From the NCBI GenBank assembly GCA_019136395.1, contig JAGVUH010000209.1, forward strand, positions 1 through 5,941: DNA of 5,941 nt. The letters run 5' to 3'. Positions 2,818 through 5,941 of the stretch are shown here, in pieces (position 1 is the first letter of the stretch; each line of letters opens with the position of its first letter). A program made the translations under genes and the position numbers. The notes below the pieces were generated by a model. It was given only the letters and a program-made list of their open reading frames with translations. It was not told the origin of the DNA and searched no databases. The stretch is from Gammaproteobacteria bacterium. GTDB lineage: Bacteria; Pseudomonadota; Gammaproteobacteria; Chromatiales; Chromatiaceae.

Positions 2818-5445
2818 AAGGAAAAACCAAGGGGGGGGGGCGCGCCGCTCCCCCCTACCCAATCCCGCGCTGGCTGCTACCCACCGCGGCTCTTCAACCA
2901 TCAACCATCGACAGAGGACGTTGATATGGACGACAACAGCTCGTCGTTATCCCCGCTGAGTTCCCAGGACTCGACAACTCCCGCCTTGCCGGCGGCCACC
3001 GGCCAGGTGCGGATCTCATCACAGACCTTTGACATGGTGGTTACCATGAACCAGACGGACCCCACCACGCTGCCTCAGCCCCCGCAAGAAGCTACCCAGA
3101 CCACGCTCCCCCTGAGCGTCAAACGCTACCTGAGGCGGCACTCAGAACTGCGTGAGGACAGCGCAAGGATAGCGGAATTGGTTGAAAACTACAACCAAAC
3201 AGCTAGATACCTTAGTCTCCTCGACCCGGATGCAAAGCGCTTTCTCTTCTTTACGGTCCTGGAGGACAAGCAATTCGAGGGCGATCGACCCAACAGTACG
3301 CTCTGGCGGACCCTGGACGATGCCTGGCCAAGTCTCATGGATTTGAACGATGACGGCTATGGCATCTTCGTCTGCATCAACGAGACGAATGGGGGGTATC
3401 GCAAGCTTGCGGATATCACCGGGGTGCGCGCAGTCTGGATCGACCACGACCAACCCGATCAGCCCGAGGTGCCCACCCGACTGCCGCCGCAGATCCGCGT
3501 CATGACCTCTCCCGGCAAGTCACAGCGTCTGTTCCTGACCCAGACCAAGGATTTCGCCGCCTTCACGGCGGTGCAGGATCACCTGGTCTGTGATTATGGC
3601 TCAGATCCCGGCGCCGCGGACTTGTCTCGCTGCCTGCGCCTGCCCGGCTTCCGGCACATGAAAGACCCCACGACGCCGCACCTGGTCACGGCGGAGTTTT
3701 CCCCCACCGCCGAGCGCTATCCCTGGGCCGAAATCACCGCCGCCTTCCCCGCACTCCCGCCAGCGGCCAAACCCGCGCCGGCGCCCGCGCGCCAGGCGGG
3801 CGGAAGGGGCATGGCCTTGCGCCCGGTCTCCCTGCAACTGGGGCGCGTCGCCTCCGCGCTCAACAAGATCCCACCCGACTGCCCCTATGACGAGTGGCTC
3901 CGCATCGGCATGGCCCTGCACGCCACGGAAGAACCGGAAGCCTTCGACCTCTGGGATGCGTGGAGCGCCCAGGGCGATACATACCGCCGGGGTGAGACCA
4001 AAGCCAAGTGGGAGACGTTTTCCATTGATCCGGATGGCGTCACCTTAGGCACCCTCTTCCACCTGGCCAAGGGATACGGCTGGACGGAAGAGGACGGCAT
4101 CAAGGATGCGCAGGCCCAGCTCCTAAATCTCCTGGTTTACGCGGCGGAGTTGGACGCCTTCTATAACCTCGCCACCGGGGCTTACTACACCCAACCCGCC
4201 CTCAACCGGCTCTACGCCCATCTCCCCTGGGGGGAGAGCAAATCGGCCGGGAAATGGTTCACCAGCCATTACGCAGCGAAAAAGTGTGACAACTTAACCT
4301 ACTTACCTGGCAAAGCGTCAGGGTTGGTGCGCTTCAAAGGCAAGCCCTGTTTCAACCTCTGGCGCCCAACCGATGCCACCTACATCCCCGGGGTCACCGC
4401 TGACGACATCGCACCCTACCTCGAACTGGCGGCGTATCTGATCCCGGATGAACGGGTACTGGGGCACATCCTGGATACCTTCGCCTTCGTGATCCAGCAC
4501 CAGGACATCAAGGTCAACCACTGCATTCTGGTGAGTGGCGCGCACGGCATCGGCAAGGACACCTTGTTCCAGCCCTTGATCCACGGGTTGGGCGTGCATA
4601 ACGTGGCGCAACCCTCGGCGAGCGAAATGCACGAGAAGTTCACGGACGCCCTTCTCTCCGCCAAATGCCTGGTCTACCAAGAGGTCCAGAACTTTGACAA
4701 GACCGAGATCGAAAACAAGCTCAAACCGATCATCGCCGCGCCGCCGGAGGAACTACGACTGCGACTCTTCGGTAAAGGATATGCGCTCGTGCCTAACCGG
4801 GTCTTCGTCATCATGATGTCCAACCATCGCAATGCCCTGAAGATCTCGCCCGGTGACCGCCGCTACCTGGCCTACTGGTCTCCCGCCGAACCCAGGCCCC
4901 AGACGTTCTACCGTAAGTTTTACGACTGGCTCAACGCGGGCGGCAATGACCAGATCTACTCCTGGCTCAAGGATCGCGATGTGTCCGCCTACGATCCCAA
5001 GGCCCCCGCGCCTCTGACCGAGTACAAGCAGGAGGTGATCGGCATGGGCCTGTCGGACGCGGAGGCGCGCATCGCCGAGTTCAAGCTGGTGATGGCCGAT
5101 GAGCCCGACCGGCATCTCTATACCTTAGAGGAGGTCATAAAGGGGATGGGGTATGACGAGTTCCACAAGAATGAACCAGGTCGCCCTACCGAGCAGCGCC
5201 TTCGCACCCTCCTACTAGAGGCGGGATTCCAAAGCAAAAGCGTTCGCTTCCTGAAGGACGGCAAACGGGAACGCAAGTCGCTCTGGTTCGCGGTCGATCA
5301 TGAGCGCTATCAGTCGATGACGGAAGCACAACTGGTCAAGGCTTACGATGGGCAGCGAGCCGCCCCGGTGACAAAGCTAATCGAAGCAGCAAAACCGTCA
5401 GTAAAACAGTCTCTTACCCGCACAAGAGGGCGGCGAAGGACCTAA
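2812..5445 (+). CDS. Plasmid/phage-type replication primase-helicase (RepB-like primase, PriCT-2, DUF5906 SF3 helicase)
   Basis: Probable replication initiator that makes primers and unwinds DNA for a mobile element. Residues 1-125 are low complexity, with Ser/Thr/Pro-rich stretches. About 130-300 is a RepB-like archaeo-eukaryotic primase domain: catalytic motif VWIDHD (D211, D213), SPGKSQ (233-238) and DLSRCLRLPG (270-279). About 343-424 is a PriCT-2 domain (NKIPPDCPYDEWLRIGMALH). About 560-700 is a superfamily 3 helicase: Walker A GAHGIGKDT (576-584, K582), Walker B CLVYQE (619-624), motif C with N671 in VIMMSNH, and a candidate arginine finger in GDRRYLAY. About 769-829 looks like a winged helix, followed by a basic tail ending RTRGRRRT. 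The order recalls phage P4 alpha protein, whose C-terminal domain binds origin repeats. All catalytic residues seem intact. Start 2812 has the better ribosome-binding site; Met39 (ATG 2926) is an alternative that skips a ten-G run. The gene stands alone, followed by the TGTCCA array. Confidence 0.88.
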   Translation: MTKEKPRGGGAPLPPTQSRAGCYPPRLFNHQPSTEDVDMDDNSSSLSPLSSQDSTTPALPAATGQVRISSQTFDMVVTMNQTDPTTLPQPPQEATQTTLPLSVKRYLRRHSELREDSARIAELVENYNQTARYLSLLDPDAKRFLFFTVLEDKQFEGDRPNSTLWRTLDDAWPSLMDLNDDGYGIFVCINETNGGYRKLADITGVRAVWIDHDQPDQPEVPTRLPPQIRVMTSPGKSQRLFLTQTKDFAAFTAVQDHLVCDYGSDPGAADLSRCLRLPGFRHMKDPTTPHLVTAEFSPTAERYPWAEITAAFPALPPAAKPAPAPARQAGGRGMALRPVSLQLGRVASALNKIPPDCPYDEWLRIGMALHATEEPEAFDLWDAWSAQGDTYRRGETKAKWETFSIDPDGVTLGTLFHLAKGYGWTEEDGIKDAQAQLLNLLVYAAELDAFYNLATGAYYTQPALNRLYAHLPWGESKSAGKWFTSHYAAKKCDNLTYLPGKASGLVRFKGKPCFNLWRPTDATYIPGVTADDIAPYLELAAYLIPDERVLGHILDTFAFVIQHQDIKVNHCILVSGAHGIGKDTLFQPLIHGLGVHNVAQPSASEMHEKFTDALLSAKCLVYQEVQNFDKTEIENKLKPIIAAPPEELRLRLFGKGYALVPNRVFVIMMSNHRNALKISPGDRRYLAYWSPAEPRPQTFYRKFYDWLNAGGNDQIYSWLKDRDVSAYDPKAPAPLTEYKQEVIGMGLSDAEARIAEFKLVMADEPDRHLYTLEEVIKGMGYDEFHKNEPGRPTEQRLRTLLLEAGFQSKSVRFLKDGKRERKSLWFAVDHERYQSMTEAQLVKAYDGQRAAPVTKLIEAAKPSVKQSLTRTRGRRRT
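2831..2840 (+). repeat. Run of ten G just inside the primase-helicase gene
   Basis: Ten consecutive G follow the seventh codon, and with ten the frame from ATG 2812 is open. By my reading, eleven G would lead to TGA at 2922-2924, one base before the alternative ATG at 2926, and nine would lead to TGA at 2957-2959. Such tracts slip readily during replication and are also prone to sequencing error, so the true reading frame of the first 38 codons depends on this count. Confidence 0.8.
2914..2928 (+). promoter_or_regulatory. Alternative ribosome-binding site and start codon of the primase-helicase gene
   Basis: GAGG (2914-2917) lies eight bases before ATG 2926-2928, in frame with the long protein (Met39). 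Starting here removes a Pro/Gly-rich, unconserved-looking leader and avoids the G-run, giving 839 residues with all domains intact. A stop in another frame (TGA 2922-2924) ends one base before this ATG, an arrangement that permits translational re-initiation. Confidence 0.5.
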
Positions 5446-5479
5446 CAAAGCCCGTGTAGGCTAGGGGCCGTCCAAGCCG

Positions 5480-5537
5480 TGTCCATGTGTTTCTTCATTT
5501 AATTCATAGTCTTATATGGATTTTGGACACATGGACA
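5480..5537. repeat. 11-bp perfect inverted repeat made from two array units
   Basis: TGTCCATGTGT (5480-5490) and ACACATGGACA (5527-5537) are exact inverted copies separated by 36 mostly AT-rich bases. It lies about 35 bp after the primase-helicase stop. The loop is long and no T-tract directly follows the right arm, so it fits inverted protein-binding sites better than a terminator, though a stem-loop in single-stranded DNA or in RNA is possible. Confidence 0.6.
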
Positions 5538-5731
5538 GCTGGACAGCCCCCTTTCTGCCTTTTTATTTTCCAGTAGCGCAGCAGGGCGCACCCTTCCCCC
5601 CTCATTATTTTTTCTAAATTAAGGGTTTTTAGGTGTCCATCTGTCCAAATGCTTTTAACTAATTGATTATTAGATATTTTGTCATGGACAGGCTCTCTTC
5701 CACGTCTGTCCAAATGCTGTCCATCTGTCCA
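5480..5731. repeat. Iteron-like array: ten TGTCCA units on both strands, largely 8-bp phased
   Basis: Plus-strand TGTCCA units start at 5480, 5634, 5642, 5707, 5718 and 5726. Minus-strand units (TGGACA on plus) start at 5524, 5532, 5540 and 5685. The groups 5524/5532/5540, 5634/5642 and 5718/5726 have an exact 8-bp period, as TGTCCAnn repeats. Three units end as TGTCCAAA (minus 5522-5529, plus 5642-5649, plus 5707-5714). Two 14-bp sequences recur exactly: TGTCCATCTGTCCA (5634-5647, 5718-5731) and TCTGTCCAAATGCT (5640-5653, 5705-5718). Within the primase gene I noticed only one TGTCCA. By analogy with short repeats bound by initiators such as P4 alpha, these are candidate binding sites for the adjacent primase-helicase; that role is inference. 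AT-rich stretches between the groups (5601-5630, 5653-5680) could be melting regions. Confidence 0.75.
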
Positions 5732-5740
5732 TCAATACAC

Positions 5741-5750
5741 TAGCGCGCTA
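5741..5750. repeat. 10-bp perfect palindrome
   Basis: TAGCGCGCTA is a perfect palindrome 9 bp after the last TGTCCA unit and 13 bp before a second, longer GC palindrome. It could bind a dimeric protein or be a recombination or resolution core; the sequence alone does not decide. Confidence 0.5.
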
Positions 5751-5763
5751 CTGCTCCACGCCG

Positions 5764-5779
5764 GGCCGGCGCGCCGGCC
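5764..5779. repeat. 16-bp perfect GC-only palindrome
   Basis: GGCCGGCGCGCCGGCC is a perfect 16-bp palindrome made only of G and C, placed between the repeat array and the AT-rich tail. Its symmetry has no spacer, so it suits a dimeric DNA-binding protein or a duplex-to-cruciform site better than an RNA hairpin. It contrasts sharply with the AT-rich sequence immediately downstream. Confidence 0.6.
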
Positions 5780-5780
5780 A

Positions 5781-5941
5781 GTCGCAAAACATACAATACG
5801 ATATGCTATTCAATTAGTTATAAGCTATTCCCAAACATTAATTATCTATAAATATTACTTATGCTCACATAATTTTACTTAATCAATTCTGCCCATTACA
5901 TTTTTGAACTACATCCTTGCACCCTCTCCCCCGCTCGCCGC
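5781..5941. other. AT-rich tail with no supported gene
   Basis: About 5781-5915 is strongly AT-rich (for example TTAATTATCTATAAATATTA at 5838-5857) and the last 25 bases return to a C-rich composition. No open frame has a ribosome-binding sequence or a recognisable product. It could be a DNA-unwinding element of an origin, a promoter region for a gene beyond the window, or simply the edge of an inserted element. I found no exact DnaA box here. Confidence 0.45.

Follow-up and report, generated by a model that had tools for sequence, protein, structure and literature searches.

Which function does a dense array of short repeats have when it lies directly behind a primase-helicase gene? The question is raised by the window, the whole stretch of 5,941 nucleotides analysed here (contig JAGVUH010000209.1, from a Gammaproteobacteria bacterium of the family Chromatiaceae), in which the hexamer TGTCCA occurs ten times, on both strands, within positions 5480-5731, behind such a gene at 2926-5445. 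Very probably, the array forms the iterons of a replication origin that belongs to the mobile element carrying this gene, and we propose that the element is a phage, a satellite or plasmid-like. This reading is comparative: it is drawn from the arrays found behind relatives of the gene, from the TGTCCA arrays behind other primases, and from the fact that in the latter families the repeat follows the C-terminus of the protein. Candidate origin iterons had already been suggested from the letters of this DNA alone (hereafter the sequence-only reading), and on comparative evidence the suggestion appears to be supported.

The TGTCCA array and its gene

The motif search of the window, together with a search for repeats, placed the ten copies as follows.

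5480..5485, plus strand, copy 1 (motif search)
5524..5545, minus strand, copies 2-4, starting at 5524, 5532 and 5540, 8-bp pitch (motif search)
5634..5647, plus strand, copies 5-6, starting at 5634 and 5642, 8-bp pitch, TGTCCATCTGTCCA (motif and repeat search)
5685..5690, minus strand, copy 7 (motif search)
5707..5712, plus strand, copy 8 (motif search)
5718..5731, plus strand, copies 9-10, starting at 5718 and 5726, 8-bp pitch, TGTCCATCTGTCCA (motif and repeat search)

The steps from start to start are 44, 8, 8, 94, 8, 43, 22, 11 and 8, and seven of the ten copies stand in exact 8-bp phase, in three groups. Two 14-bp exact repeats are present, TGTCCATCTGTCCA at 5634 and 5718, and TCTGTCCAAATGCT at 5640 and 5705. 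The only other TGTCCA of the window, at 4817 on the plus strand, is within the primase-helicase gene. In 2000 dinucleotide shuffles of 5446-5941, TGTCCA had a mean of 0.14 copies and a maximum of 2, and the commonest hexamer of any kind a mean of 3.34 and a maximum of 7, against the 10 observed. The sequence-only reading was thus right about the copies and their two orientations, the three tandem groups, the 14-bp repeats and an abundance beyond chance. It was also right about the primase-helicase directly upstream, in whose product a domain search identified RepB_primase, PriCT_2 and DUF5906.

2926..5445, plus strand, primase-helicase gene, 839 amino acids from the ATG at 2926 (open reading frame list, domain search)
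3178..3750, plus strand, AEP/RepB-type primase domain, residues 123-313
3850..4068, plus strand, PriCT-2 domain, residues 347-419 (PF08707, E 3e-22)
4534..4863, plus strand, SF3/D5-like helicase core (DUF5906), residues 575-684 (PF19263; NrS-1 and SaPI5 folds)
5119..5292, plus strand, predicted C-terminal winged helix, residues 770-827 (AlphaFold2 model)
5620..5679, AT-rich stretch within the array, GC 0.28 (base composition)

The locus combines what is expected of a P4/SaPI-like iteron origin served by a self-loading SF3 primase-helicase: a short repeat in multiple copies, beyond chance, adjoining the initiator gene; repeats that point both ways, accompanied by an AT-rich segment; and an initiator which, judged by domains and fold, appears to unite an SF3/D5-type helicase with primase domains. 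The reading frame is open and holds residues conserved across 21 aligned sequences; G579, G581 and K582, invariant in the alignment, fall in the stretch of the helicase core that reads as a Walker A motif. In the AlphaFold2 model the C-terminus forms helices at 772-778 and 794-803 followed by a beta hairpin at 806-827, and the SaPI5 fold match extends to residue 813. This modelled winged helix is the proposed reader of TGTCCA. The fold-search lists may miss folds, and absence from them was given no weight. A protein search returned 23 plasmid and 450 phage records, none covering 80% of the query and all below 60% identity.

The open frame extends back to an ATG at 2812, which would give 877 amino acids, and the relatives P0002 and P0003, 89-90% identical to the window protein, are 839 amino acids long. 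A run of ten G at 2831-2840, near the start of the extended frame and upstream of the likelier ATG at 2926, is a spot for slippage or assembly error.

Arrays behind relatives of the gene

A protein alignment was used to find 157 loci (L001-L157), and the downstream region was examined in 67 of them (L001-L034 and L081-L113). Three without a stop codon, two with less than 250 bp, two with less than 600 bp and four near-copies were dropped, leaving 56, among which the near relatives L019 and L020 were both retained. Some hexamer reaches at least seven copies in the 600 bp downstream in 14 of the 56 relatives, against 22 of 833 tiles of 600 bp from other parts of these loci; at least eight copies are reached in 12 of 56 and 8 of 833, respectively (Mann-Whitney p 3e-7, uncorrected for kinship). 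Two of the 14 are doubtful, one with 16 copies at a 15-bp period that is probably a coding repeat (L111) and one that is AT-rich (L015). Their removal leaves 12 of 56 at seven copies or more, the control tiles not being cleaned likewise. The sequence-only reading had set enrichment of TGTCCA behind such genes as its test: the arrays are indeed commoner than in control DNA, but they are made of other hexamers.

The hexamer varies from protein to protein: GTGCCA (L002), GTAAAC (L108), AGGGAC (L109), GGAACC (L019 and L020) and ATTAGC (L011), with arrays of 5-6 copies of GTGAAC (L004 and L007) and CGTCCC (L025). The build resembles that of the window array, mostly with 8-11 bp pitch and in two orientations, and the 8-bp pitch is hence not special. 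The same scan behind P4 alpha, as a positive control, returned GGTGAA in ten copies, in both orientations, within the annotated crr (type 1 repeats). GTGAAC, with six copies behind L004 and five behind L007, partly at 9-bp pitch, has the same core as these P4 repeats; the two loci come from a Comamonas metagenome-assembled genome and a betaproteobacterial one.

TGTCCA arrays behind other primases

The triple 8-bp array TGTCCANNTGTCCANNTGTCCA is present in 29 viral contig stretches, and in 13 of these a primase-helicase gene ends at the array. Four are close relatives of D5_N/NrS-1-like type (L159-L162), two are VapE (L170, L175) and five DUF3987 (L172, L177, L181, L183, L187). The other two are L174, with PriCT-2 and DUF5906, the same helicase/PriCT-2 pairing as in the window protein, and L180, with PriCT-2 and Prim-Pol, where there are three copies only. 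In a further contig, L185, the primase is about 1.6 kb from the array.

Among 77 primase loci fetched by protein similarity (motif-found contigs, near-copies and loci with less than 600 bp downstream left out), 25 have at least four TGTCCA in the 600 bp downstream, a count reached by 0 of 924 tiles from the rest of these loci. By family these are 18 of 54 DUF3987, 7 of 21 VapE, 0 of 1 NrS-1-like and 0 of 1 PriCT-2. Since the query proteins were picked for having an array, these counts show that array and gene stay together and do not describe a random sample. In a wider set that includes the motif-found contigs, any hexamer reaches at least seven copies in 38 of 83 loci, against 76 of 980 tiles. 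A viral scan with P0005 gave one weak locus (L314).

In four of six hand-picked phage records, a repeat array follows the primase within 500 bp: VarioGold with five TGTCCA, Aval with five CGTCCA, NancyRae with eight GCAAAC and Haddon with six CTGTCC. No array was found within 500 bp behind the primase in YungJamal and MW202483. VarioGold, a Variovorax phage, thus shares the motif of the window.

The motif is not generally frequent, as far as proxy DNA can stand for the source genome. Besides the 924 tiles, none of which reaches four copies, 4 of the 16 genomes of relatives contain a double TGTCCA array and 2 of the 16 a reversed control pattern; among 398 Pseudomonadota genomes, 1 contains the triple array and 2 the control.

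Some arrays deserve description in their own right. L185 has 21 TGTCCA at 7268-7513, in a single orientation and interspersed with TGTCTA units, about 1.6 kb behind the primase gene. At L192:8901-9080, directly behind lpxK, there are 11 TGTCCA, of which five share one orientation at 9-bp pitch and six have the other. In L173:8368-8742 and L186:957-1331, groups of TGTCCA lie beside a TATATATA-rich stretch and adjoin an open reading frame of 217-228 amino acids without a family match; these are perhaps origins with an unknown initiator.

In other primase families the repeat follows the C-terminus

From 80 DUF3987-type loci, 58 were usable after dropping 7 with short downstream DNA and 15 near-copies, and the array is clear in 36 of the 58, being TGTCCA in 22 and another repeat in 14; the remaining loci are unclear or have a protein shorter than 300 residues. 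With helicase identity controlled for, pairs that share a repeat have more similar C-termini, at a partial r of 0.28 (label shuffles: 0 of 500); for the reverse relation in this DUF3987-type set the partial r is -0.03. The motif RDR is present within the last 85 residues in 18 of the 22 TGTCCA proteins and in 2 of the 14 others; the 22 include four proteins of motif-found contigs, and three of these have RDR.

One close pair differs in C-terminus as well as in repeat. L174 and L195 are 76% identical in their best segment, with 287 of 306 residues shared in 75-380, 195 of 246 in 500-745 and 42 of 88 in the last 90; L174 has TGTCCA, whereas L195 is followed by five TGTTCA and no TGTCCA. In one VapE branch, L284 and L305 (five TGTCCA each, no CGTCCA) share KKQ.NG.RAWG, while L285-L288 and L309 (4-5 CGTCCA, 0-1 TGTCCA) share RE..G.RR.GY, a comparison of small numbers among kin. 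The window protein belongs to none of these branches, so the link between C-terminus and repeat applies to it by analogy.

We put at about even odds a single rule that spans several primase-helicase families: a hexamer array at 8-11 bp pitch, behind the gene, read by the protein's own C-terminal winged helix through a partly readable code. Candidate elements of this code would be RDR with TGTCCA in DUF3987-type proteins and, in one VapE branch, KKQ.NG.RAWG with TGTCCA versus RE..G.RR.GY with CGTCCA. Were the rule true, either unrelated winged helices would have arrived at TGTCCA or an ancestor would have passed it on, and the origins of uncultured mobile elements would become predictable from sequence.

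Origin or something else

Several observations weigh against the array being an origin read by the gene's own product. The C-terminal model is of middling confidence, with 10-residue blocks at a predicted local distance difference test score (pLDDT) of 54-78; RDR is absent from the C-terminal 130 residues of the window protein, and its winged helix is of a different sequence type. A total of 42 of the 56 relatives have no hexamer at seven copies or more downstream. No TGTCCA array is found in L001-L157, the best being three copies in 300 bp. This first seemed contrary, and a motif-free hexamer scan then revealed the other arrays. No primase was found beside the array in 15 of the 29 motif-found contigs, in which only some open reading frames were scanned (L158, L163, L164, L171, L173, L176, L178, L179, L182, L184, L186 and L188-L191; those of L171 were unscanned). 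The single triple array of Pseudomonadota (L169/L192) is beside lpxK, with no primase seed match in 19 kb. Finally, the iterons beside the primase/polymerase gene repB of pWTY27 are bound by a separate protein, RepA (PMC3583192; this and the other articles are cited from excerpts of their text).

The last point leads to the alternative that a separate DNA-binding protein, from the element or its host, uses the array as an operator, origin or partition (centromere-like) site, which would lie behind the primase gene only because replication and partition functions cluster. Phages Miko and Rachaly, with parS repeats downstream of repA (PMC7157519), are a further precedent for a separate reader, and these two cases slightly lower our confidence in the origin reading and raise that in a separate binder. 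The arrays beside lpxK in L192 and beside the unmatched frame in L173 and L186 fit it as well. We nevertheless consider it unlikely: in 13 of the 29 motif-found contigs, four being close relatives, a primase-helicase gene runs up to the array, the repeat co-varies in other families with the primase's own C-terminus, and the open reading frame list holds no obvious gene in 5446-5941, though the window ends at 5941.

A DNA stem-loop of the sort put forward for pRN1 and phage BIP-1 could also be the functional element, the repeats mattering only through the pairing of opposite orientations. The array region folds better than its shuffles (z -3.48, 0 of 100 as good), with opposed repeats supplying part of the pairing, and stem-loop origins have been proposed for proteins with AEP, SF3 and winged-helix domains, including PriCT-2 ones (PMC4234260). 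However, seven of the ten copies stand in same-strand 8-bp tandems, which pairing does not need, and relatives retain the tandem build with other hexamers. BPP-1 itself has a 9-bp-pitch repeat, two copies each way, around an AT-rich stretch about 467-569 bp behind its primase, but four copies are at background level and only suggestive of origin iterons. We regard the stem-loop as improbable. That the array is a decayed remnant or functionless repeat in the chromosome next to pgk is more improbable still: the window does carry a pyruvate-kinase-like frame besides pgk, its open reading frames showed no integrase when inspected by eye, and no tRNA or RNA family was found in it, but the gene is open with conserved residues, the ten copies are exact and relatives 89-90% identical exist.

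If the array is instead an origin, as we think very probable, analogy with P4 alpha, SaPI Rep and SCCmec Cch2 suggests how it would work. The C-terminal winged helix would bind the repeats, and the opposed groups would let two hexameric helicase rings assemble around an AT-rich stretch; ATP-driven melting would follow, and the fused AEP domain would then lay the first primers. The DNA past the array has further features.

5764..5779, perfect 16-bp GC palindrome GGCCGGCGCGCCGGCC, between the array and the AT-rich stretch at 5800-5889 (sequence and repeat pair search)
5800..5889, AT-rich stretch past the array, GC 0.22 in both 60-bp windows, a candidate unwinding element (base composition)

A 19-nt inverted repeat (5651-5669 and 5807-5825, 89% complementary, 137 nt apart) spans the right part of the array. 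An origin of the DnaA-box type was rejected, as 5446-5941 has no exact match, on either strand, to the consensus TTATNCACA or TTGTCCACA. A DNA similarity search of 5446-5941 against plasmids only gave no match.

These results provide a candidate origin and a proposed reader for an uncharacterised primase-helicase family. The enrichment of repeat arrays downstream of such genes means that origins of phages and satellites could be found from sequence, and a protein-DNA recognition code can be tested directly on the natural pairs whose repeats differ by one base and whose C-termini differ slightly.

Comparison with known systems

This kind of origin is already known from P4 and SaPI. In the literature as far as covered, no statement of the motif, of the family or of how widely the rule holds was apparent. 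The sequence-only reading knew of no described origin with this motif, and we found no published description of one among the titles and abstracts listed, those from a search aimed at the motif itself included. The excerpts of PMC7145576, PMC5862659 and PMC10803314 name no such array, and PMC3583192, in which the letters TGTCCA occur, names other repeats in its excerpts.

The comparison with P4 made in that reading is apt. There, crr follows alpha directly and contains short repeats that run both ways, partly at 9-11 bp pitch with pairs at 9 bp, and one winged-helix protein binds the repeats, unwinds and primes (PMC4234260). P4 differs in its repeat core (GGTGAACA instead of TGTCCA), in its Toprim-type primase where the window protein has AEP (PMC4234260), in a further separate ori, and in pitch, which is 8 in the window. 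The origins of SaPI Rep and the SaPI5 primase-helicase differ in belonging to staphylococcal islands. In SCCmec, the isolated C-terminal domain of Cch2 binds the region downstream of its own gene, and loss of the direct repeats abolishes binding (PMC7581432); there are only three 5-nt iterons, however, and the primase is a separate protein. In the Streptomyces plasmid pWTY27, repeats of 8 bp and 7 bp occupy both strands next to the primase/polymerase gene of repAB, but the repeat is GTGGGAAC and it is the separate RepA that binds it (PMC3583192).

The primase-polymerase of phage NrS-1 matches the fold of the window helicase core. For some PrimPol-PV1 proteins, origin recognition by a C-terminal winged helix has been suggested (PMC5862659). 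ORF904 of pRN1 and the replication proteins of the Bordetella phages BIP-1/BPP-1 combine AEP, SF3 helicase and winged helix, with PriCT-2 in the phage proteins as in the window protein, and have the origin region 3' of the gene (PMC4234260). For these a stem-loop origin has been proposed instead of iterons (PMC4234260), and the array described here bears on that proposal as it concerns replication proteins of the PriCT-2 type.
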